Position numbers and translations under genes: made by a program. The notes beneath the pieces are model-generated. The model was not told the DNA's origin and ran no database searches. It saw only the letters and a list, made by a program, of their open reading frames with translations. Shown one piece after another: positions 11,742 to 46,504 of a stretch of DNA of 64,000 bases. The number at the start of each line of letters is the position of its first letter. Position 1 is the first letter of the stretch. The DNA is from an uncultured Hyphomicrobiales bacterium (lineage in GTDB: Bacteria > Pseudomonadota > Alphaproteobacteria > Rhizobiales > Beijerinckiaceae), in the NCBI GenBank assembly GCA_903900975.1, contig CAIUPE010000094.1, positions 1 to 64,000 on the forward strand, given 5' to 3'.

Positions 11742-11786
11742 TTGCAGAACACATAGAGAACAGATAGGTTTGTTCATCTTTTGTTT
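11742..11786 (+). promoter_or_regulatory. lexA promoter with two SOS boxes
   Basis: Two LexA sites of the alphaproteobacterial kind lie 25 bp apart: GAAC-N7-GAAC at 11747-11761 (the reverse complement of GTTC-N7-GTTC, perfect) and GTTC-N7-GTTT at 11772-11786 (one mismatch). TTGCAG at 11742-11747 can serve as the -35 box, with a weak -10 at about 11765. Binding of LexA to its own promoter is the standard SOS feedback loop. The lexA ATG is 40 bases past the second box. Confidence 0.85.
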
Positions 11787-11826
11787 TAGTCCGCGAGTCG
11801 GACTAATTAACGGAGCGAACCGCCCT

Positions 11827-12525
11827 ATGTTGACCCGCAAGCAGATTGAACTTCTTCGCTTTATTCAAGACAGCCTTGCGCGGGACGGTGTGCCGCCTTC
11901 GTTTGATGAAATGAAGGATGCGTTGGATTTGAAATCTAAATCCGGCATTCATCGGCTGATTACAGCTTTGGAAGAGCGTGGGTTTATACGTCGTTTGGCC
12001 AACCGGGCGCGGGCGATTGAGGTGATCAAGCTGCCGGAACAGGCGCTGCCGAACCATACGCCGCGGGCCAAATTCAACCCGAGCGTGATAGAGGGTGATT
12101 TAGGGCGCATTCGACCGAGTGCAGCCAATGATGCGCCGCCTTATGTCTCGATCCCCGTAATGGGACGGATCGCCGCCGGTACGCCGATCTCGGCCATTCA
12201 ATCGCGCAGCCATACGATTGGCATGCCGCCGGATATGCTTTCGAGCGGGGATCATTATGCGCTCGAAGTGCGCGGTGATTCGATGATAGATGCCGGCATT
12301 TTTGATGGCGATACGGTCATCATCAAACGGCAGGAAACGGCTGATACGGGCGACATTGTGGTGGCGCTGATTGATGATGAGGAAGCAACCTTGAAGCGGT
12401 TGCGCCGTCGTGGCTCCTCCATTGCGCTTGAAGCGGCCAATCCAGCCTATGAGACCCGTGTATTGGGGCCTGATCGCGTGCGTATTCAAGGCAAATTGGT
12501 AAGCTTGATGCGGCGCTACCATTGA
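11827..12525 (+). CDS. lexA: SOS repressor LexA
   Basis: LexA represses DNA-damage genes and cleaves itself when RecA is activated. I chose the ATG at 11827 ([10 protein letters not shown]), since the longer frame runs back across the SOS boxes. The 232-residue product has a winged-helix DNA-binding domain (1-65), a long linker typical of Hyphomicrobiales, the Ala117-Gly118 cleavage site, and the Ser152/Lys190 catalytic pair (GDSM; EEATLK). All key residues are intact. Two SOS boxes precede it, and another perfect box lies at 42.06 kb in this window. The gene converges with comEC, with only 5 bases between stops. Confidence 0.98.
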
Positions 12526-35217: not shown

Positions 35218-38200
35218 ATGTCAGCCCCTTCTCGCTTCTCATTTAATGTATCGACTTGGGCGATCCAGCATGTGGGTCTGACTCGGTTTTTGTTTGTACT
35301 GTTGATGTTATCCGGCATTTTTGCCGTCACCCATATGGGGCAAAAAGAGGATCCTGATTTTACGTTTCGGACCATGATCGTTCAGGCCGTCTGGCCCGGA
35401 GCAAATTTGCAAGAAATGCAGGATCAGGTCGTTGATAAAATTGAACGCAAACTGCAAGAGACGCCTAATCTGGATTATCTCAAATCCTACACGAGGGCGG
35501 GCAGTACCGTTATAACCGTCAATATCAAAGGCAGCGCGGTGGGCCGTGACGTCACTGACGCGTTTTATCAAGTCCGTAAGAAAGTGGGAGATATCGCAAG
35601 CGACTTGCCACAAGGTCTATTGGGTCCCTATTTCAATGATGAATTTGGCGATACCTTTATCGCGCTTTACGCCTTTACAGGCGATGGGTTCACCTCGCCC
35701 GAATTAGAAAAATACGCCAAGCAGGCGCGCGATATTGCCTTAGGTGTTCCGGGCATCGAGAAAGTTCAGGTTCTCGGCGCGCAAGACGAAAAAATCTTTA
35801 TTGATTTATCGACTAAAACGCTGGCCGAGCGCCGTCTTTCCATCGCCGACATTGCCGCCGCCTTGGCGGCCCAATCCGGCGTAGACCCTTCAGGCCGCGT
35901 TGAAACCGCGGAACGATCGGTGCGCCTATCGGTTGATGGCGGTGTGACATCACCGGATGATATTGTCGAACTCCGCCTGCGCGTTGGAGGGGCTGTGATC
36001 CGCCTTGGGGATATCGCGACCGTGACCCGTGGTACGATCGACCCGCCCGACCGTGTTCACCGCTATAATGGCAAAGATGCCGTCATTTTGGGCATGGTGA
36101 TGGCCAAAGGATTTAACGTCACCACGGTCGGCGACGAATTGCGTGCGGCCATGACTCATGTTCAATCCAGCCTACCCGTCGGTGTCGAGATTGGCCAGAT
36201 TTCAGATCAACCAGATATCGTTAAACACTCCATCTCCGAATTTGTCGAAGCGCTCGGCGAGGCTCTAGCTATTGTTCTCATCGTTTCGTTCATTTCGATT
36301 GGATGGCGGGCTGGTCTCGTGGTGGCCATCACCATTCCCTTGGTGCTGGCTGCAACCTTTGCGGTTATGTTCGCCATGGGCATTGATTTGCAGCGGATCT
36401 CACTCGGCGCTCTCATCATCGCGCTTGGCCTACTGGTCGACGATGCCATGATCGCCGTCGAGATGATGGAACGAAAACTTGAGGAAGGGCATCCCAAACT
36501 CGAAGCAGCAGGCTTTGCCTATACGTCGACCGCTTTCCCCATGCTGACGGGGACTTTAATCACCACGGCCGGTTTCATTCCCGTGGGATTTGCGGCCTCA
36601 ACGGCGGGCGAATATGTCAGCTCGATGTTTTGGGTCGTCGGCCTTTCGCTGGTCTTATCATGGTTTGCCGCCGTTTATTTCACCCCTTGGCTCGGCAGCA
36701 TCGTGCTGAAAGAACGCCATCGCTCGGGCGCGCACCACGATATTTACGATACGAAATTCTATCACGGGTTATGGCGTGTGATTTCCTTGGCCGTTCAACA
36801 CAGAGTCCTCGTGATCGCGCTGACGCTAGGGGCGTTTGGCCTTTCGGGCTTTGCAATGCAATTTGTACCGAAAAGCTTCTTTCCTGCGTCAACCCGCCTT
36901 GAAATTCTGGTCGATCTTTGGATGCCGGAGGGTACCAGCATTCAAGAAACCGGCCTGCAGGCCAAAGCCGTCGAAGCCCGCGTGCTAAACGACCCCGATC
37001 AGGCTTTTACCGCCACTTTTATTGGCGAAGGCGCACCACGCTTCTATCTGCCGCTCGATCAGCAATTAAGAAATCCGAATTTCGCCCAATTACTGATTGT
37101 GGCGAAAGATTTACCCGCCCGTGATCGGTTGATGGAAAAGACCCGCCAATGGCTGTCGGCCTACTTCCCGAGCATCCGCTATAAGGTTGATCGGCTCTTT
37201 AACGGTCCGCCGATTGGATGGCCCGTCCAAATCCGCGTCAGCGGTCCTGATCGCAACGAGGTTAGGCACATTGCCGATCAGGTTCGCGCAACCTTTGCCG
37301 CTGACCCTCGCCTATCCTCGATCCATGATGATTGGTTGGAACCGGTGCCCGCTTTGCGGCTGGTGATTGATCAGGACCGCGCGCGCGCTTTGGGTGTGTC
37401 CTCGCAACGCCTACGCCAAACCCTGCAAACGGCCATGTCCGGCTATCCCATTGGCACCTTCCGGGAGGGGGAACAAACGATTGCCGTTGTCCTGCGCGAA
37501 GAAGAAAAGAATCGCTCATTGCTGAGTGCGGTCGCAAACACCTATGTCACGACAGATACCGGCGCCAGCGTACCGATCTCGCAATTTGCCAAATTGGTGC
37601 CTGAGCTCGAACAGGGTATTGAATGGCGCCGCAACCGACTTTCTACCATCACCGTGCGCGGCGTTATCCCACCTGGGATCGAGCCTAATGACGTCACCCT
37701 CGATATGGTCGCCAAGCTTGGTAATCTGCGCGAAAGCCTGCCGCTTGGCTACTCGATAGCGCCACAAGGCGGCGTTGAGGAATCGGCTACGAGCCAAAAC
37801 TCGATTGCCGCCAAAGCACCTCTCATGGTCATGATCATGCTGGTCTTGTTGATGGTGCAATTGCAGCATTTTGGCAAAGCGATGCTGGTTTTCGTCACCG
37901 CGCCACTTGGCTTGATTGGTGCGGTGTCGGCGCTCTTGCTCACCAATTCCGCGTTCGGCTTTGTGGCGATTTTGGGTATTATTGCGCTAGCGGGTATCAT
38001 TATGCGCAATTCGATCATTCTGATCGATCAGATCGGCCAAGATATCGAAAGCGGTCATACGCCGTGGGAAGCAACCGTCGGTTCAGCGGTACGCCGGTTC
38101 CGTCCCATCATGCTTACCGCCGCCGCTGCCGTGTTGGCGCTTATCCCAATCGCCCAATCCACATTTTGGGGGCCAATGGCCTATGCGATGATGGGTGGCA

Positions 38201-38370
38201 TCTTGGCAGCCACCGTCTTGACGCTTCTGTTTCTGCCCGCCGCCTATGCTTTATTTTTCCGGGTTAAAGTTCCCGAGGTAGGCAAACGCGACATGCCAAG
38301 CCATGCGTCGATGCTCGAGCGTCCCGACCTCGCTCTGCTTGACCTCGATCTTCCAAGAGCGGCGGAGTAG
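35218..38370 (+). CDS. RND-family efflux pump permease (HAE1/AcrB type)
   Basis: A 1050-residue proton-driven exporter of the inner membrane. The start is the ATG at 35218 with GGAG 8 bases upstream; an ATG at 35176 overlapping the adaptor stop is an alternative. The two-fold layout is intact: membrane helix 1, large periplasmic loop, six helices including LGLLVDDAMIAVEMM with the paired Asp for proton transfer (about residue 405), then the repeat. The N-terminal GQKEDPDFTFRTMIVQAVWPGA is typical of a divergent HAE1 clade common in alphaproteobacteria. Substrates are unknown. It depends on the broken adaptor upstream or on one encoded elsewhere. It ends 12 bases from the dnaE stop. Confidence 0.93.
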   Translation: MSAPSRFSFNVSTWAIQHVGLTRFLFVLLMLSGIFAVTHMGQKEDPDFTFRTMIVQAVWPGANLQEMQDQVVDKIERKLQETPNLDYLKSYTRAGSTVITVNIKGSAVGRDVTDAFYQVRKKVGDIASDLPQGLLGPYFNDEFGDTFIALYAFTGDGFTSPELEKYAKQARDIALGVPGIEKVQVLGAQDEKIFIDLSTKTLAERRLSIADIAAALAAQSGVDPSGRVETAERSVRLSVDGGVTSPDDIVELRLRVGGAVIRLGDIATVTRGTIDPPDRVHRYNGKDAVILGMVMAKGFNVTTVGDELRAAMTHVQSSLPVGVEIGQISDQPDIVKHSISEFVEALGEALAIVLIVSFISIGWRAGLVVAITIPLVLAATFAVMFAMGIDLQRISLGALIIALGLLVDDAMIAVEMMERKLEEGHPKLEAAGFAYTSTAFPMLTGTLITTAGFIPVGFAASTAGEYVSSMFWVVGLSLVLSWFAAVYFTPWLGSIVLKERHRSGAHHDIYDTKFYHGLWRVISLAVQHRVLVIALTLGAFGLSGFAMQFVPKSFFPASTRLEILVDLWMPEGTSIQETGLQAKAVEARVLNDPDQAFTATFIGEGAPRFYLPLDQQLRNPNFAQLLIVAKDLPARDRLMEKTRQWLSAYFPSIRYKVDRLFNGPPIGWPVQIRVSGPDRNEVRHIADQVRATFAADPRLSSIHDDWLEPVPALRLVIDQDRARALGVSSQRLRQTLQTAMSGYPIGTFREGEQTIAVVLREEEKNRSLLSAVANTYVTTDTGASVPISQFAKLVPELEQGIEWRRNRLSTITVRGVIPPGIEPNDVTLDMVAKLGNLRESLPLGYSIAPQGGVEESATSQNSIAAKAPLMVMIMLVLLMVQLQHFGKAMLVFVTAPLGLIGAVSALLLTNSAFGFVAILGIIALAGIIMRNSIILIDQIGQDIESGHTPWEATVGSAVRRFRPIMLTAAAAVLALIPIAQSTFWGPMAYAMMGGILAATVLTLLFLPAAYALFFRVKVPEVGKRDMPSHASMLERPDLALLDLDLPRAAE

Positions 38371-38382
38371 CACGATAAACGC

Positions 38383-41300
38383 CTAACCGTGTTCGACCAT
38401 CACCACGCCCGGAATGGTACGAATAGCGCCTGCGATCTGTGGGGTGGCCCGAAAGCCACCCTGCAATTTCATCTCGACTTCGCGCAAGCCACCATCGATC
38501 GGCAAAACGATCAAAACCTCACCATCGCCGCGCTCTTTCAGCATGCCCGATAAAGCCGGCATCGGCGAAGCATCGGTGATCGTAATGCGCAAGGAACTTG
38601 GTAGGCGAGAGGCTGCGCGCTCCAAAGACTCGGCTGATTGGATGCGGATGCGGACATCCTCACCCTCAACCTGCGCCTGAACAATCAACACGACCGCCTG
38701 CCCCGGCTCCAAAATATCGCGGAACTGGTTGAGGCCCTCTTGGAAGATGATGGATTCAAAATGCCCCGTCTGATCAGAAAGCGCAAAAATCCCCATTTTG
38801 CTGCCCGATTTCGTGCGCCGTTCGCTCCGGTCCAGCACCGTGGCCGCAAGCTTGCCAACGGTCGCACCACTGCGGGCCGCACGGGCGAATTCGGTATAGG
38901 TTTGCACCTTCAACCGCTTGAGGATGCCCGCATAATCATCAAGCGGGTGGCCGGATAGAAAAAAACCTATGGCGTCATATTCACGTTGCAAGCGGTCGGA
39001 TGCCTGCCAAGGCGTATAGGGTGGAACGCGCAAAGCTTCCGGTTCGCCAAGACCGCCGAAAATATCGCCCTGCCCTGCAATCGCTTCTTCCTGCGAGCGG
39101 TTGGCCAACGCCATAATGCCGTCGACCTCCGCAAAGCATTTCGCGCGGTCTTTATCGATAGCATCCAGCGCACCGGCGGCGATCAGGCTTTCGAGCGTCT
39201 TTTTATTGAACACGCGCGGGTTAATCCGCCGCGCCAGATCGCCGAGATCTTTGAACGGCTTATCGCCTCGCGCCGTGACAAGGCTTTCAACCGCCTGCGC
39301 GCCGACGCCCTTAATCGCTGCCAGCGCATAGCGGATCGACAATTGCCCGTCGCTGTCTTGATGAACCTCAAAGGTAACGCCGGATTGATTGACGCTCGGC
39401 GGATCCACGCGGAAGCCAAGGCGCTGCGCTTCGCGGCGGAACTCCGACAGCTTGTCTGTGTTCGACATATCGAGCGTCATCGAGGCGGCTAAAAACTCGA
39501 CAGGGTAATTAGCCTTCAAATACGCCGTTTGATAGGCCACCAGCGCATAGGCAGCGGCATGGCTCTTGTTGAAGCCGTAATCGGCGAATTTCGCGAGCAG
39601 GTCGAAGATCGTATCCGCCGTCTTGGTATCAAGGCCGCGTTCAACAGCGCCGGTAACAAACCGCTCGCGCTGCTGGTCCATCTCCGATTTGATCTTCTTA
39701 CCCATGGCGCGGCGCAACAGATCGGCTTCACCGAGCGAATAGCCCGACAGGATCTGGGCGATCTGCATCACCTGTTCCTGATAAATGATGACGCCGTGGG
39801 TCTCTTTGAGCGAAACTTCAAGTTTCGGATGAAGATATTCCGGCACCTCATGCCCGTTTTTGCGGGCATTATAGACTGGAATATTGGCCATCGGGCCCGG
39901 ACGATAGAGCGCCACCAGCGCGATGATATCCTCGAAGCGGTCGGCCCGCATTTCTGCGAGCGCCTTGCGCATGCCCGCACTTTCGAGCTGGAACACGCCC
40001 ACCGTTTCGCCCCGCCCGAGCATGTCAAAGGTGCGGGTATCATCAATCGGGATCGACTCAAGATCGACAGTAATGCCGCGCGCCCGGATCAGCTCAACGG
40101 CCTTTTGCAGCACGGTAAGCGTTTTAAGGCCCAAAAAGTCGAATTTGACGAGGCCCGCCGGCTCAACCCATTTCATGTTGAATTGGGTCACCAGCATATC
40201 GGATTTAGGATCGCGGTAGAGCGGCACCAACTGTTCTAAGGGCCGATCCCCGATCACGACACCTGCCGCATGCGTTGAGGCGTGACGGTGCAGGCCTTCC
40301 AGCACCAGCGCGATATCCAATAGCCGCCGGACGGTGGGATCCTCATCAGCAGCCTGCCTCAAGCGAACCTCGGTCGAAATCGCCTGCTCAAGCGTCACCG
40401 GATTGGCAGGATTTTGCGGCACCAACTTGGTGAGTTTATCGACTTGGCCGTAAGGCAATTCCAACACGCGACCCACATCGCGCAACACGCCGCGGGCTTG
40501 CAGCGTTCCGAAGGTGATGATCTGCGCCACGCGGTCCGCGCCATATTTGCGTTGGACATAGCGAATGACCTCATCGCGCCGGTCTTGGCAGAAATCGATA
40601 TCGAAATCCGGCATCGACACACGATCCGGATTAAGAAAGCGCTCGAACAACAGGCCAAAGCGTAAAGGGTCAAGATCTGTAATCGTGGTTGCATAAGCAA
40701 CAAGCGATCCCGCACCCGAGCCACGCCCCGGCCCTACCGGAATGCCTTGCGCCTTGGCCCAGCGGATAAAATCGGCAACGATCAGAAAATAGCCCGGATA
40801 TTTCATCCGCTCGATCACGGATAATTCAAAATCGAGCCGCTTTTCATAATCATCAACGGTCAGACCTTCAGCTGGCCCATGCGCCTTTAACCGGACTTGT
40901 AAACCATTGACGGCTAGCTCGCGAAGGGCGGCCGCCTCATCGGTTGGCATATCCTGCTCGCCTACCGTGAAATTCGGCAAGATTGGCTTGCGGGTTTTAG
41001 GACGGAACGAGCACCGCAGGGCTATTTCGATGGTGTTGGTCAGCGCCTCGGGCAAATCGGCAAAGAGCTTTCGCATGGCAGAGCGCGATTTGAAATCATG
41101 TTCAGGTGTCACACGGCGGCGCTCGGGGTCTGAAACCAACCGCCCTTCGGCGATGGCAAGCAGCGCATCATGGGCAGCATAGGAATCCGGCTTGGCAAAA
41201 TAAGCTTCATTGGTCGCAACCAAAGCGATGTCCTGCGCATAGGCCAGACCAATCAAACCCGTCTCGGTCCCGGTCTCATCGGCGGAACCATGACGTTGAA

Positions 41301-41844
41301 TTTCAACGTAAAGCCGATCACCAAAAACGGATTTCAGCCGTTGCAGCCTTGCCTCGGCCAATTCGCTTTGCCCGGCCACCAAGGCGCGATCGAGCGGCCC
41401 TTTCGGACCTCCCGTCAAAACGATCAAACCATCCGCTGATGCACACAAAGTTTCAAATGACACATGCGGCGACCCTCCCATTTGCGGCGATAAATAAGCC
41501 AGCGACGAGAGCTTCATCAAATTGTCGTAACCTGCCTCGTTGGCCGCCAACAGTACAACCGACGGATAGACAAGATTGAGCGAAGACCCACGCCCGCCTG
41601 TTTGGTCCTGCATATCAAGCGCCAACTCGACACCAGTGATAGGTTGGATACCAGCACCCGCCAACTTTTCAGAAAATTCGAGCGCACCAAACAGATTATT
41701 AGTATCCGTCAAGGCAAGGGCCGGCATCCGGTCCTTGGTCGCAAGCTTTTTCAGCTCGTCAATCTTGAGTGCACCTTCGAGCAGCGAAAAGGATGAATGG
41801 ACATGGAGATGTACAAACCCAACCTCCTCCAAAATCCGACTCAT
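38383..41844 (-). CDS. dnaE: DNA polymerase III subunit alpha
   Basis: DnaE is the replicative polymerase. The 1153-residue protein has a PHP domain (HLHVHSSFSLLEGAL at about 12-26), the catalytic Asp residues in PDFDIDFCQDRRDEVIRYV (about 400), the fingers with YRPGPMANIPVYNARKNG, a tandem HhH region, and an OB domain near 1000 (IFALSDQTGHFESIIF). It is the essential DnaE1 type: it has full length, and no imuA/imuB mutagenesis genes are near. A 30-codon small ORF with an SOS promoter lies 88 bases upstream on the same strand, so part of dnaE transcription may be damage-inducible. Confidence 0.97.
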   Translation of the reverse strand: MSRILEEVGFVHLHVHSSFSLLEGALKIDELKKLATKDRMPALALTDTNNLFGALEFSEKLAGAGIQPITGVELALDMQDQTGGRGSSLNLVYPSVVLLAANEAGYDNLMKLSSLAYLSPQMGGSPHVSFETLCASADGLIVLTGGPKGPLDRALVAGQSELAEARLQRLKSVFGDRLYVEIQRHGSADETGTETGLIGLAYAQDIALVATNEAYFAKPDSYAAHDALLAIAEGRLVSDPERRRVTPEHDFKSRSAMRKLFADLPEALTNTIEIALRCSFRPKTRKPILPNFTVGEQDMPTDEAAALRELAVNGLQVRLKAHGPAEGLTVDDYEKRLDFELSVIERMKYPGYFLIVADFIRWAKAQGIPVGPGRGSGAGSLVAYATTITDLDPLRFGLLFERFLNPDRVSMPDFDIDFCQDRRDEVIRYVQRKYGADRVAQIITFGTLQARGVLRDVGRVLELPYGQVDKLTKLVPQNPANPVTLEQAISTEVRLRQAADEDPTVRRLLDIALVLEGLHRHASTHAAGVVIGDRPLEQLVPLYRDPKSDMLVTQFNMKWVEPAGLVKFDFLGLKTLTVLQKAVELIRARGITVDLESIPIDDTRTFDMLGRGETVGVFQLESAGMRKALAEMRADRFEDIIALVALYRPGPMANIPVYNARKNGHEVPEYLHPKLEVSLKETHGVIIYQEQVMQIAQILSGYSLGEADLLRRAMGKKIKSEMDQQRERFVTGAVERGLDTKTADTIFDLLAKFADYGFNKSHAAAYALVAYQTAYLKANYPVEFLAASMTLDMSNTDKLSEFRREAQRLGFRVDPPSVNQSGVTFEVHQDSDGQLSIRYALAAIKGVGAQAVESLVTARGDKPFKDLGDLARRINPRVFNKKTLESLIAAGALDAIDKDRAKCFAEVDGIMALANRSQEEAIAGQGDIFGGLGEPEALRVPPYTPWQASDRLQREYDAIGFFLSGHPLDDYAGILKRLKVQTYTEFARAARSGATVGKLAATVLDRSERRTKSGSKMGIFALSDQTGHFESIIFQEGLNQFRDILEPGQAVVLIVQAQVEGEDVRIRIQSAESLERAASRLPSSLRITITDASPMPALSGMLKERGDGEVLIVLPIDGGLREVEMKLQGGFRATPQIAGAIRTIPGVVMVEHG

Positions 41845-41932
41845 CTTCGCCCCCAGTGCTGCATGCTCCTGTCTTGCCCTGTTCGAGGCCTATCAGGCAA
41901 GCGGCAAGCGAACCGGCCAGCGTGGATAAATG

Positions 41933-42025
41933 TCAAATAAACACGCTCGACCAAGCATATATCGTACCCAGAAAAGCGGTGAGCGCTGCGAGTTCGGTAA
42001 TGTCTTCTACAAGTGCGCGAAGCAT
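41933..42025 (-). CDS. SOS-controlled 30-residue membrane small protein (SidA-like)
   Basis: ATG at 42025, stop at 41933. A strong GGAGG lies 5 bases upstream of the ATG. The peptide starts MLRALVEDITEL and continues with one hydrophobic segment (about residues 12-30, containing AALTAFLGTIYAW), so it should sit in the inner membrane with a short cytoplasmic end. Its promoter has a perfect GTTC-N7-GTTC box between -35 and -10. In Caulobacter crescentus the 29-residue inner-membrane protein SidA is SOS-induced and blocks cell division through late divisome proteins; as I recall it is also encoded next to dnaE. Size, topology, regulation and neighbour agree, but I cannot align the sequences here, so the role is an inference. 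It is easily missed by gene finders. Confidence 0.72.
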   Translation of the reverse strand: MLRALVEDITELAALTAFLGTIYAWSSVFI

Positions 42026-42053
42026 GAAAACCTCCATCCGATTGCGATGAAGC

Positions 42054-42083
42054 ATCATATGTTCACGTTTTGTTCTAATGCAA
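42054..42083 (-). promoter_or_regulatory. SOS promoter of the small ORF (and dnaE)
   Basis: On the minus strand: -35 TTGCAT (42078-42083), 18-bp spacer, -10 TATGAT (42054-42059). The LexA box GTTC-ACGTTTT-GTTC (42061-42075) fills the spacer, so LexA would block RNA polymerase. The small ORF begins 29 bases downstream of the -10 box. This is the same box type as in front of lexA at 11.75 kb. Confidence 0.85.
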
Positions 42084-42133
42084 GATAATTCTTCCTGGCC
42101 CGACCGACGCTCTTTGAAAGGGTTAATAAAACC

Positions 42134-42841
42134 TTAATTAAGCTCGACGACTACCCCGTCACGAATGGTCACTCGGCGATCCATCCGCGAGGCCAATTCG
42201 AGATTATGCGTGGCAATCAGTGCCGCCAATCCTGTTACCTTGACCAGAGATAGCAGGGTTTCAAATACATAAGACGAGGTCGCTGGATCCAGATTACCGG
42301 TCGGCTCATCAGCCAATAAAACACGAGGGCGATTGGCAACGGCCCGCGCAATGGCGACTCGTTGTTGCTCCCCGCCCGACAGCTCAGCAGGCCGATGGGT
42401 GAGCCGTTCACCAAGCCCCAGATAACGCAATAACTCTGTCGACCTTTGTCGCGCTTCGCCGCTTTCTAATCCACCAATCATCTGCGGCAACATAACGTTT
42501 TCAAGCGCCGTAAATTCCGGAAGCAAATGGTGGGCCTGATAGATAAAGCCCAGTTCATGGCGTCGAATCGCCGTTCGCGCACCGTCGGGCAAGCCAACCG
42601 TGGGTTTGCCGCCGATGAAAACTTCGCCTGCATCAGGCCTTTCCAATAATCCAGCCATCTGAAGCAAGGTCGACTTGCCCGTGCCGGATGGCGCAATCAG
42701 CGCAACAGACTGACCCGGCCAAACCGCAAGGTCCGCACCCTTAATGATATTCAACGTTTGTTCGGCATCGACAAACCGCCGCTCGACCTTCCACAGGAAG
42801 AGCATCGGATCTGGCCGTTCGGACGATTGGGTATCGGTCAT
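42134..42841 (-). CDS. lolD: Lipoprotein-releasing ABC transporter ATPase
   Basis: LolD powers release of outer-membrane lipoproteins from the inner membrane to the LolA carrier. From the ATG at 42841 the product is 235 residues. ABC motifs are intact: Walker [10 protein letters not shown] (about 48-56), signature [14 protein letters not shown], Walker [14 protein letters not shown] and the switch His (ATHNLEL). The start overlaps the lolC stop (ATGA). The MacB/FtsE-type relatives share the motifs, but the lolC neighbour settles it. Confidence 0.95.
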
Positions 42842-44133
42842 TCGTACCGCAAAGCCTCCACAGGATCGAGCTTTGCTGCCCGCCAAGCTGGGTAAAGCGT
42901 TGCCAACAGCGACAATAACAAGGCCATGCCAACGACAACACCCACTTCGCGGGGATCCACATCCGCAGGTAGATGGCTCAGAAAGTAAAATTCAGCCGGA
43001 AACAAATTGGTCTGAGTAAGTTTGGAGGCCAAAGCGCGCAGATTTTCGACATTCATCGCAACAACTGTACCGAGCGCAAATCCGGCAAACGTACCGACGA
43101 ACCCGATAGCGGCTCCTGTAATCAGAAAAATCCGCATGATGGCGCCACGCGTCGCACCCATTGTCCGAAGGATGGCAATATCCGCGCTCTTGTCTTTCAC
43201 CAGCATGATCAGGCCGGACACGATGTTCAGCGCTGCCACCAGCACGATCAAAGTGAGGATCAAAAACATCACGTTACGCTCGACTTCCAAAACGCCGAAA
43301 AACGTTTTGTTGCGTTGGCGCCAATCGGTCAAAAAGACGGGTCTTTCAATTTGCGTATTGATTGCGGCCTTGGCTTCATCCACCCGATCGGGATTGGCTA
43401 AAAACAATTCGATAGCGCTAACATCGCCATCCCGATTGAAATAGGCTTGCGCCTCGGTTAGCGGCATATAGACAAAGGCGGAATCAAATTCTGACATGCC
43501 AATCTCATAAACCGCTGCCACCGGATAGGTTTTGATCCGTGGTGCTGTTCCAAAGGCCGTTTGTGGCCCTTTGGGTGCCGTCAGTGTGATGTTGTCGCCC
43601 GGCCTAAGAAAAAGTTGCTCGGCCAGACGTTTACCGATCACGACGCCGGCATCGCCGTCAAAGCCCTCGAGAGTTCCTTGCTTGATATTGGTAGCAATAG
43701 CTGGAATGCGCTTGATATCACTCTCGCGCACACCACGCACGAGCACACCGCCCGCCCCTGCGGAAGTGGAAGCCAAGGCCTGCCCTTCAACCAGAGGCAA
43801 CGCCAACACGACAGATGGAATCCGCTCCAACGCTTTCGAGAGCGGACCATAATCGGTCAGCGGCTTATCGATCGCCCCAACGAATACATGGCCGTTAATG
43901 CCGACAATCTTGTCGAGTAATTCTTTCCGAAACCCGTTCATCACGGACAAGACAATGATCAGCGTTGCCACGCCCAACATGATGCCGATAAACGAGAAAC
44001 CGGCGATAACCGAGATAAAGCCCTCCTTGCGGCGCGCCCGCAGATAGCGCAACGCAATCAACCACTCGAAGGCGGAGAACACCCCCGAGCCAGCCAATCG
44101 ACGCTTTCCCTGATCTGAAGCCGAATCGGTCAT
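42838..44133 (-). CDS. lolC: Lipoprotein-releasing system permease
   Basis: The membrane partner of LolD. The 431-residue protein has the LolC/LolE layout: one N-terminal helix preceded by [34 protein letters not shown], a large periplasmic domain (about 70-290), then three C-terminal helices of the FtsX type. Only one permease gene is present; in many alphaproteobacteria one such protein (LolF-like) works as a dimer in place of LolC plus LolE. It follows proS after 4 bases, so proS-lolC-lolD form one operon. Confidence 0.94.
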
Positions 44134-44137
44134 GAAA

Positions 44138-45460
44138 TCAGGCCGAGAGCCGGGCGATAGTCTCTTCTACCGACAGCAACTCGCGTTCGCCCGTTTTCCG
44201 GCGCTTGAGTTCCACTTTGCCTTCCGCCAGTCCCTTCGGGCCGACGAGAACCTGCCAAGGCGAACCGATTAGGTCGGCGGTGGCAAATTTCGCACCCGTC
44301 CGCTCATCGCGATCATCATAGATCACGTCTTTACCGCGTGCGGTCAGCGCTTTGTAAAGCGTCGCGCAAGCTTCATCGGTGCCCGCATCGCCGATTTTCA
44401 AATTAAGCAGCGAGACGTCAAACGGAGCAACCGCATCCGGCCAGATAATGCCAGCCTCGTCATGCGAGGCTTCGATCAAGGCCGCCACCAGCCGTGATGG
44501 GCCAATACCATAAGAGCCCATGTGAACCGGCGTCTCACGGCCATCCGGCCCCGTAACGGTAGCCTTCATCGGTTCTGAATATTTGGTACCAAAATAGAAG
44601 ATATGACCCACTTCAATGCCGCGCGCCGATATCTGGCGATCGGCAGGAACGGAGTTGTAAGCCGCCTCGTCATGCATTTCTGACGTTGCCGCATAGGGCT
44701 TCGTCCAAGCTTGGAAAATGGTGTCGAGAGCTTCGCGGCTATCGAAATCGGTATCAACCGCTGGGATCGGCTGATCGAGCACCGCTTTATCGGCAAATAC
44801 TTCGCTTTCGCCGGTTGAGGCCAGAATGATGAATTCATGGCTGAGATCGCCACCAATCGGGCCGGTATCGGCGCGCATCGGAATGGCGGTCAGACCAAGC
44901 CGCGCAAAGGTGCGCAGATAGGCCACGAACATGCGGTTATAGGAGTGGCGCGCGCCTTCCTGATCGAGATCGAAGGAATAGGCGTCCTTCATCAAAAATT
45001 CGCGGCTACGCATCACGCCAAAACGCGGGCGCACCTCGTCGCGGAATTTCCACTGGATGTGATAAAGATTAAGCGGCAAATCCTTGTAGGACCGAACGGA
45101 GCCGCGGAAAATTTCCGTGATCATTTCCTCGTTCGTCGGCCCAAACAGCATTTCGCGCTGATGCCTGTCCTTAATCCGAAGCATTTCCTTGCCATAGGCA
45201 TCGTAACGGCCCGATTCCCGCCAGAGATCGGCCGATTGAATCACCGGCATCAAAAGTTCAACTGCACCAGAGCGGTTCTGCTCTTCGCGGATGATCGCAT
45301 TGATCTTGTTCAAAACCTTCAAGCCAAGCGGCAACCAAGCATAAATACCCGCGGATTCCTGCCGAATAAGGCCGGCCCGCAACATCAGGCGGTGAGACAC
45401 AATTTCCGCCTCTTTCGGCGTTTCGCGGAGGATAGGCAGGAAATATCGCGACAGGCGCAT
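44138..45460 (-). CDS. proS: Prolyl-tRNA synthetase, short form
   Basis: ProS charges tRNA(Pro). The ATG at 45460 ([13 protein letters not shown]) has AAGAAGAGA upstream; a TTG 7 codons earlier is unlikely. The 440-residue product is the short alphaproteobacterial form without the roughly 180-residue INS editing domain between motifs 2 and 3 seen in E. coli (572 residues). Class II motifs are visible: [27 protein letters not shown] (the TxE proline loop), [17 protein letters not shown], and [13 protein letters not shown] (motif 3). Misacylated Ala-tRNA(Pro) would have to be cleared by a separate editing protein. Confidence 0.97.
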
Positions 45461-45578
45461 GATGGATCTCTTCTTGGGCAAAACGGAATCAAAATCGAGC
45501 CTCGTTTGAACCGCATCGAAGCGAAAAACACAAGCGACGCTATGGCGTGTCTAAGACCCGAAAATAACAGAAAGCCTG

Positions 45579-45836
45579 TATAATGGGCGATCGTACTTTT
45601 TTATGGCATTTTAATGTCTCAAAGGATGACAGCCCCAAAAAAGTAGGGTAGCAATATGTCGCCTAGGATAAAATAGAGGTCGCGCCCATGCGGATGACGG
45701 CACATGGTCCAGGTCTGGGGAGGAATCTCCACCAGTAACGGAAGAGACGTTAAGTCCGGTCGCTTTTATCATGCGACTCCGTTTGGTGGTGTCAGGAATG
45801 AAATTAGAAGGCAGGGTTATCCCTGCCTTTTTTATT
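45579..45836 (+). ncRNA. Candidate structured small RNA with promoter and terminator
   Basis: The 399-bp space between proS and the DUF1467 gene holds no convincing ORF, yet on the plus strand it carries a perfect TATAAT (45579-45584). Downstream of it are a long stem with exact 9-bp arms TACTTTTTT/AAAAAAGTA (45594-45602 with 45637-45645), then CCATG/CATGG, then CTGG-GGAG/CTCC-CCAG around 45714-45734, then GTCGC/GCGAC (about 45759-45777), and finally a strong terminator. There is no plus-strand gene after the terminator. A transcript of about 245 bases would fit. I see no match to 6S, SRP, tmRNA or RNase P RNA. The -35 box is weak, so the promoter is tentative. Confidence 0.45.
45810..45833 (+). 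terminator. Rho-independent terminator of the candidate small RNA
   Basis: GGCAGGG (45810-45816), loop TTAT, CCCTGCC (45821-45827), then six T residues (45828-45833). The T run is on the plus strand, whereas both flanking genes are on the minus strand, so it must end a plus-strand transcript. Confidence 0.88.
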
Positions 45837-45859
45837 ATCAAATCAATGACTTAAGACGA

Positions 45860-46087
45860 CTATTCAACGTATTGAATAAAGAACGAGAGTGCGGCTGCAA
45901 CGGGCATTGCTACCAGGCTTGTGATAAGCACTTTACGCCATAGGCGGGGAATGGCCGGAGCGCCTGCTTCGGTTCCCGGTGTTACATTGCCCATCTCGGT
46001 CTGGCTTTTGACGCCAAGCGGAAGAATCGTGAACAAAGTGAGCCACCAGGAGATGCCGTAAATGGCGAGAATCGTTGCAATCGACAT
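45860..46087 (-). CDS. DUF1467 family membrane protein
   Basis: A 75-residue protein with two membrane segments (about 5-26 and 52-71, ISWWLTLFTILPLGVKSQ and VLITSLVAMPVAAALSFF). The motif WWLTLFxxLPxGV is the hallmark of the alphaproteobacterial DUF1467 family. The function is unknown; it is regularly found downstream of the methylmalonyl-CoA epimerase gene and upstream of proS, as here. The ATG at 46087 has GGAAAGC upstream, and mce ends 12 bases away. Confidence 0.9.
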   Translation of the reverse strand: MSIATILAIYGISWWLTLFTILPLGVKSQTEMGNVTPGTEAGAPAIPRLWRKVLITSLVAMPVAAALSFFIQYVE

Positions 46088-46099
46088 GGTGCCGCTTTC

Positions 46100-46504
46100 C
46101 TAGATTTGTTCGAGTTCGATCAGCGTGCCGTTGAAATCTTTGGGATGAAGAAACAGAACAGGCTTGCCATGGGCGCCAATCTTAGGCTCGCCATCGCCCA
46201 GCACCCGCGCGCCACCAGCTTTTAACCGATCGCGCGCGGCCAACAGATCATCGACCTCATAGCAAATATGGTGGATGCCGCCGTCGGGGTTGCGCTCCAA
46301 AAACTTGGCAATGGGGCTTGCCTCGCCTAACGGTTCCAACAGTTCGATCTTGGTATTGGGCAATTGGATGAACACGACCGTCACCCCATGCGCCGGTTGC
46401 GGCAGAGGCTCTGATACCTCGGCACCCAGCGTTTCGCGATAAAGTTTCATCGCGCTTGCCAGATTGCCCACCGCAATCGCTACATGGTTGAGACGTCCGA
46501 TCAT
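46100..46504 (-). CDS. mce: Methylmalonyl-CoA epimerase
   Basis: It interconverts (R)- and (S)-methylmalonyl-CoA in propionyl-CoA breakdown. The 134-residue protein is a VOC-superfamily fold with the expected metal ligands: His7 (LNHVAIAV), the His pair in GGIHHICYEV (about 76-85) and Glu in GTLIELEQ at the end. The sequence LNHVAIAVGNLASAMKLYRETLG is characteristic. The mutase genes are not in this window. It lies 10 bases after rnj. Confidence 0.95.
   Translation of the reverse strand: MIGRLNHVAIAVGNLASAMKLYRETLGAEVSEPLPQPAHGVTVVFIQLPNTKIELLEPLGEASPIAKFLERNPDGGIHHICYEVDDLLAARDRLKAGGARVLGDGEPKIGAHGKPVLFLHPKDFNGTLIELEQI

Follow-up and report, generated by a model that had tools for sequence, protein, structure and literature searches.

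A 30-codon open reading frame (ORF) directly ahead of dnaE in the window, the 64,000-nucleotide stretch of DNA analyzed here, is most probably the SidA orthologue of this Hyphomicrobiales bacterium. We infer for its product the function of an SOS-induced, FtsW-directed division inhibitor and put the probability of this reading at roughly 0.8. The gene with its promoter, operator and ribosome-binding site, the selection at the protein level, and the membership in a Caulobacter-type family at a Caulobacter-type locus are all evident from the sequence.

The ORF, its promoter and its operator

The elements of the locus, together with the lexA region of the window, are as follows.

42078 to 42083, minus strand: -35 hexamer TTGCAT, where all 12 genomes of the genus have TTG(C/T)
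42061 to 42075, minus strand: predicted LexA operator GAACAAAACGTGAAC, a direct repeat GAAC-N7-GAAC, with a perfect box here in each of the 12 genomes of the genus
42054 to 42059, minus strand: -10 hexamer TATGAT, partially conserved in the genus
42031 to 42035, minus strand: Shine-Dalgarno sequence GGAGG, 5 bases ahead of the ATG, with GGAGG-N5-ATG unchanged across all 12 genomes of the genus
41933 to 42025, minus strand: gene for a predicted small membrane protein of the SidA family, 30 codons plus TGA (ORF list, conservation, family HMM)
38383 to 41844, minus strand: dnaE, DNA polymerase III alpha subunit (Pfam PHP, DNA_pol3_alpha, finger, HHH_6)
42134 to 42886, minus strand: ABC transporter ATPase, the upstream neighbor (Pfam ABC_tran), behind a permease ORF at 42838-44133
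11747 to 11761, plus strand: predicted LexA operator ahead of lexA, GAACACATAGAGAAC, a perfect box
11827 to 12525, plus strand: lexA, the presumed repressor (Pfam LexA_DNA_bind, Peptidase_S24)

The ORF runs from the ATG at 42025 to the TGA at 41935-41933 and encodes the 30-aa product MLRALVEDITELAALTAFLGTIYAWSSVFI. Its stop lies 88 bp from the ATG of dnaE at 41844, with dnaE downstream on the same strand, and the operator (GTTC-N7-GTTC when read on the plus strand) fills the 18-base spacer between TTGCAT and TATGAT. A sequence-only reading of the same DNA had described a 30-codon ORF with GGAGG 5 bases before its ATG, a promoter TTGCAT-18-TATGAT on the same strand with a perfect LexA box in its spacer, dnaE 88 bp downstream, and a lexA with the same box in the window. 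Each of these elements was recovered, the promoter at 42083-42054, the distance to dnaE from agreeing coordinates (41933 versus 41844), and lexA with the support of Pfam; the lexA start at 11827 was chosen by eye, the longest ORF being 11770-12525. By their position, the upstream ATPase and permease ORF are presumably lolD and lolC. A longer reading of 41 aa from an ATG at 42058 was rejected, as its start codon falls within the -10 hexamer and the start of the 30-aa form is the one that is kept throughout the genus.

The peptide is moderately hydrophobic, with a best 19-residue Kyte-Doolittle mean of 1.67 compared to 2.06 for the Caulobacter ORF described below. A single-sequence AlphaFold2 model places residues 2-29 in one helix with a mean pLDDT of 96. 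The single membrane-spanning segment proposed earlier agrees with the model, and the peptide is predicted to be a membrane protein with one spanning helix.

Neither a short ORF nor a LexA box carries much weight by itself. Positions 38000-46500 are overlapped by 102 ORFs of 25 aa or more, so the mere presence of a short ORF has no evidential value. Perfect boxes numbered 4 in the window against a mean of 1.97 in shuffled sequences, with at least 4 in 11 of 100 shuffles, and the whole genome contained 69 perfect boxes versus 114 matches to a reversed control pattern; the box alone was rejected as evidence, perfect boxes being no commoner than the reversed pattern. As perfect boxes and short ORFs are both common, it is conservation, not the box or the ORF alone, that lifts the locus above chance. 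Furthermore, a promoter scan of the region did not list the TTGCAT-18-TATGAT promoter, and it should be noted that TTGCAT has only TTG in common with TTGACA. The scan for terminator-like sites found none between the ORF and dnaE on the minus strand, and read-through into dnaE is thus possible. The sole minus-strand site, at 42052-42032 with 3 G-C pairs, belongs to the leader ahead of the ATG, and the scanned region contained 2 such sites versus 0.6 in shuffles.

Perfect boxes elsewhere in the genome of the window were inspected for 15 stretches hand-picked out of the 69 box places, 4 of them with SOS-type genes (contigs C96, C131, C141, and C132) and 11 without a recognized SOS gene. Two boxes lie ahead of recA, one lies between the divergent ssb and uvrA, and one lies ahead of rmuC, also facing a divergent ORF that by eye looks def-like. 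One more is located 25 bases ahead of an ORF upstream of a second dnaE-type gene; this ORF gave no Pfam match, and its position suggests that it is ImuA-like. Together, the boxes at recA, the ImuA-like ORF, ssb/uvrA, and rmuC sketch the genome's SOS regulon in outline. A box identical to the 15-base box of the window was found on contig C31 (position 324 of L318), where no SidA-like ORF lies beside it; it follows an ORF resembling a ribosomal-protein gene, by eye rpsD, and probably reflects chance.

Conservation in the genus and distribution across the class

All 12 genomes of the genus, among them that of the window, contain the peptide. Their alignment preserves the reading frame with its ATG, GGAGG, the operator, and TTG(C/T), while the stretch from the ORF stop to dnaE shows poor conservation even at genus level. 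Variable alignment columns are distributed over codon positions 1, 2, and 3 as 15, 7, and 25 across 28 codons. Moreover, dN was lower than dS in all 55 computable pairs (out of 66), with a median dN/dS of 0.085, a codon pattern indicating that the peptide sequence is under purifying selection. Genus-wide conservation combined with codon-level selection makes the ORF more than a chance reading frame.

For a wider view, genomes were drawn from the order (121) and from the class (192); dnaE was found in 119 and 180 of them, respectively, and the 2 and 12 genomes that gave no dnaE match were left out. The 600 bases upstream of dnaE were taken for 60 regions from the order (57 from other families and 3 from the window's own family) and 80 from the class. 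From the 118 other genomes of the order in which dnaE was matched, the order regions were chosen by hand so that most families contributed one or two; the class regions were likewise hand-picked out of the 180 genomes with a match, among the matches listed and with larger genomes preferred. Two regions (L021 and L022) were included owing to a peptide match, and L023 was dropped as its dnaE start was not found. Two genomes appear twice across the sets (G047/G350 and G074/G347). G350 is Rhizobium ecuadorense, a member of Hyphomicrobiales, and shares its match coordinates and upstream sequence exactly with G047, which is labeled as belonging to the order of the window; the window is placed in Hyphomicrobiales on this basis.

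A region was counted as positive when the combined HMM matched with E <= 0.05 (the worst counted match had 0.044), and a box was counted anywhere in the 630-base stretch. On this basis, a SidA-like ORF lies ahead of dnaE in 28 of 57 order regions and in 7 of 80 class regions, with no match of the combined HMM in the remaining 29 and 73. A perfect box in the same orientation is present in 33 of the 35 HMM-positive regions, and the other 2 carry a box with a single mismatch. A test set out in advance for the sequence-only reading was whether relatives that retain the SOS box also retain the peptide, and the 137 regions support the reading: 33 contain both peptide and box, 2 the peptide only, 13 the box only, and 89 neither (Fisher p 8e-19). 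Oppositely oriented boxes are present in 12 of the 137 regions. As 19 HMM seeds were drawn from the order set and 9 from the Caulobacterales-type set, matches of the combined HMM within these sets are partly circular, and the count was therefore repeated with the seed regions removed, giving 14, 2, 13, and 89 regions, respectively (Fisher p 4e-9).

The arrangement of the locus is kept along with the peptide. In 32 of the 33 double positives, the box lies no more than 250 bases before the stop of the ORF, the exception being L037 with 384 bases, and the distance from the ORF stop to the anchor near the dnaE start ranges from 64 to 335 bases among the order and class matches. Most of the 13 regions with a box only show a short hydrophobic ORF, as judged by eye, so that the 35 positives are perhaps an undercount. 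Such an ORF with a box, below the HMM threshold and upstream of dnaE in other families or orders, was seen in L049, L052, L075, L108, L124, L125, L127, L137, L141, and L147; these may be further, more diverged SidA relatives.

The surroundings of the box were compared in 36 operator regions with perfect boxes, namely 33 from the order and class, 2 of the window's family, and the window itself. The GAAC half-sites are fixed in the resulting consensus because only perfect boxes were included. Positions that were not fixed by this selection are also skewed, with A at box positions 5-8 in 31, 31, 35, and 31 of the 36 regions and directly after the box in 35; a weak TTGAC stands ahead of the box and AT behind it.

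Within the window's own family, 2 of the 3 regions that had not been selected by peptide match were positive (G012 and G104) and one was negative (G019). Outside the genus, a plain search with the 30-aa peptide (E <= 0.1) detected relatives in G015 and G021 only, representing 2 of the family's 13 other genera, and missed G012, which the HMM detected. A match in G022 (E 0.6) sits in a 396-aa frame and was taken as chance. The family is unrecognized by Pfam and NCBIfam, where seven member peptides yielded three weak matches to unrelated families, far under the cut-offs. A PDB search with the peptide of one relative (not that of the window) gave no match.

Relationship to the Caulobacter ORF and the question of FtsW

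For comparison with Caulobacter, we used named genomes found via a Caulobacter pilin query, a taxonomically skewed set for which 30 of 80 loci were selected and 29 used (L204 was left out), and a draw of 41 genomes from the genus of Caulobacter sp. HMWF025, of which 4 overlap the 29 and 9 were left out. G188, considered at one point as a Caulobacter relative from a large family, was discarded because its family comprised a single genome. A related ORF of about 29 residues, exemplified by the 29-residue ORF of G397, lies ahead of dnaE in the same orientation in all 35 Caulobacter regions covered. A Met-initiated reading of 28-30 residues exists in 34 of them, and HMWF025 uses a GTG start. The combined HMM matched 55 of the 57 named and Caulobacter-genus regions, the exceptions being a Methylobacteriaceae MAG and an Enterovirga MAG. 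In Caulobacter, sidA and dnaE are presumably neighbors, a gene order that fits the genomes compared. From its length, its operator, and this presumed gene order, we infer that the 29-aa Caulobacter ORF ahead of dnaE is SidA. Caulobacter SidA is an inner-membrane protein of 29 residues, induced in the SOS response and interacting with FtsW (PMC4211646); its locus tag is CCNA_02004 (PMC10769358), and dnaE is CC1926 (PMC1839093).

Profile searches connect the peptide of the window to this ORF. An HMM of 19 Hyphomicrobiales peptides, from which the genus of the window was excluded, matched the window with E 1.4e-8 and a Maricaulis ORF with E 4.6e-5. It listed all 35 Caulobacter regions, albeit weakly, with E 0.0034 to 2.4 (4 of 35 at <= 0.01 and 19 of 35 at <= 0.1). 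In the other direction, an HMM of nine Caulobacter, Phenylobacterium, Brevundimonas, and Maricaulis peptides matched its best order members with 1.3e-4 and 2.4e-4. None of 1772 control ORFs reached E <= 0.1 with either HMM, and among the decoys (951 reversed and 2040 shuffled), E <= 0.01 was reached by 0 with the Hyphomicrobiales HMM, 1 with the Caulobacterales-type HMM, and 1 with the combined HMM.

The profile-profile comparisons with hhalign gave 95% and E 2.6e-8 for an 18-peptide Hyphomicrobiales profile against the Caulobacterales-type profile, and 97% and E 4.7e-11 for the genus of the window against the Hyphomicrobiales profile. The direct comparison of the genus with the Caulobacterales-type profile was weak, at 38% and E 3.4e-4 over 28 columns from residue 1. 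In 200 column permutations per comparison, none equaled the real score, the best control of the direct comparison scoring 17.8 versus 17.9. Since the direct match is weak, family membership runs through intermediates together with the common locus and operator, and by these sequence profiles the peptide of the window is homologous to the Caulobacterales family through intermediates. The earlier suggestion of a SidA-type device in another order is thus supported by these links via intermediates as well as by the common orientation, the site before dnaE, and the operator.

The supposed target, FtsW, was compared as well. In Caulobacter FtsW, A31K relieves inhibition by SidA but not by DidA and is thought to prevent binding, which makes A31 a likely SidA contact. 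Mutations at F145 and A246 relieve both inhibitors, F145L being among those that relieve SidA, and have been read as activating division (PMC4211646). Furthermore, AlphaFold 3 models place Caulobacter SidA against TM7 of FtsW, although their authors describe the models as not of high confidence (PMC13396833, 2026). All three residues, A31, F145, and A246, are present in the FtsW of G397, which fits a Caulobacter crescentus-like genome in the terms of PMC4211646.

FtsW is also encoded in the genome of the window, where F145 is kept and A31 and A246 are replaced by L and S, respectively; these replacements count against carrying the Caulobacter picture over unchanged. The conservation of F145, which extends to 9 of 9 FtsW proteins compared, says little on binding, as mutations at F145 and A246 have been interpreted as switching division on, not as marking a contact. 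Moreover, Caulobacter sp. HMWF025 bears a SidA-like ORF and yet has G at FtsW position 31, so A31 is not strictly required. Searches for FtsW/RodA-family proteins gave one protein over the cut-off in each of six Hyphomicrobiales genomes (G000, G004, G058, G350, G353, and G354) and two in each of three Caulobacterales genomes. With one per genome over the cut-off in the six searched, the peptide in Hyphomicrobiales would face a single FtsW/RodA-type enzyme.

Proposed mechanism, alternatives, and related systems

In the mechanism that we propose, LexA bound to GAAC-N7-GAAC between the -35 and -10 hexamers would block RNA polymerase. DNA damage would activate RecA, LexA would be cleaved, and a short transcript would be made. 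The resulting 30-residue single-helix peptide would enter the inner membrane and hold the FtsW-centered septal wall complex inactive, such that division would wait during DNA repair. LexA binding, induction, membrane insertion, FtsW binding, and division arrest are carried over here from the work on Caulobacter. With less assurance, we also lean towards the view that SidA is an old, dnaE-linked alphaproteobacterial SOS checkpoint, kept in many Hyphomicrobiales families and some other orders, which there would act on the sole FtsW/RodA-type enzyme and perhaps also raise dnaE transcription.

A SidA-derived peptide might have acquired another partner or outcome in Hyphomicrobiales, such as the polar growth machinery or a different protein of the divisome. 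The replaced FtsW residues 31 and 246, the strong divergence of the peptide from the Caulobacter form, and the differing numbers of FtsW/RodA-family proteins in the six Hyphomicrobiales and the three Caulobacterales would fit such a shift; however, family, locus, operator, and size are all common to the Caulobacter form, and HMWF025, with G31 and a SidA-like ORF, takes weight from the residue at position 31, rendering this explanation unlikely. A different role would be that of an SOS-induced hydrophobic peptide that disturbs the membrane and is no divisome inhibitor. SOS membrane peptides of the DinQ/TisB type cause membrane depolarization and are controlled by antisense RNA. The product of the ORF would be a small single-helix SOS peptide, and SOS membrane peptides are known, DinQ (PMC3567139) and also TisB among them, but its membership in a specific sequence family linked to SidA and its conserved site ahead of dnaE make this role very unlikely.

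The same site would suit a leader peptide or attenuator that regulates dnaE through its own translation, as the ORF is directly upstream on the same strand at 88 bp, with no terminator-like site found in between. It is the amino acid sequence that is under purifying selection, however, and the spacer to dnaE is unconserved within the genus and of variable length (64 to 335 bases to the dnaE anchor) across the order and class, leaving this explanation with a very slim chance. Finally, a chance ORF next to a chance box, conceivable in view of how common perfect boxes are, is refuted by the conservation in the genus and the codon-level selection, and we give it practically no weight.

SidA itself is already known from Caulobacter, and what is new here is a member in another order. 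If the ORF is a SidA orthologue as we propose, the distribution described above suggests that the SidA damage checkpoint is far more widespread than Caulobacter. SidA-type genes are easily overlooked, since genes of 30 codons are often unannotated. The literature covered discusses SidA only for Caulobacter; the founding paper lies outside this coverage, and an earlier mention of relatives is possible. In the literature listings covered, no description was found of the mechanism by which Hyphomicrobiales (Rhizobium, Bosea, Microvirga, and relatives) halt division after DNA damage. For each genome that carries it, our analysis provides a candidate division-inhibitor gene together with its operator, its start codon, and a conserved motif. 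It also yields dozens of natural SidA variants for mapping the contact to FtsW.

Among known systems, SidA of Caulobacter crescentus (CCNA_02004) is the closest, sharing with the peptide of the window a length of 29-30 residues, one hydrophobic helix, a LexA-type operator in the promoter, and a position directly upstream of dnaE in the same orientation, as far as the Caulobacter ORF is indeed sidA. In contrast, the peptide of the window comes from another order, is strongly diverged in sequence and is known from sequence alone, and it would meet an FtsW with L for A31 and S for A246. YneA, SosA, ChiZ, and DivS of Gram-positive bacteria are likewise damage-induced division inhibitors, but they come from other lineages, are set apart by description, and are longer than SidA-type peptides. 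YneA, SosA, and ChiZ have been described as membrane proteins that act late and are predicted to touch FtsW (PMC13396833). DidA of Caulobacter is a small membrane division inhibitor acting after DNA damage as well, but is set apart by its description as a 71-residue, SOS-independent protein that binds FtsN (PMC4211646). SulA of Escherichia coli, while also an SOS-induced division inhibitor (PMC4211646), is cytosolic and disrupts FtsZ polymerization (PMC6851548, PMC4211646).
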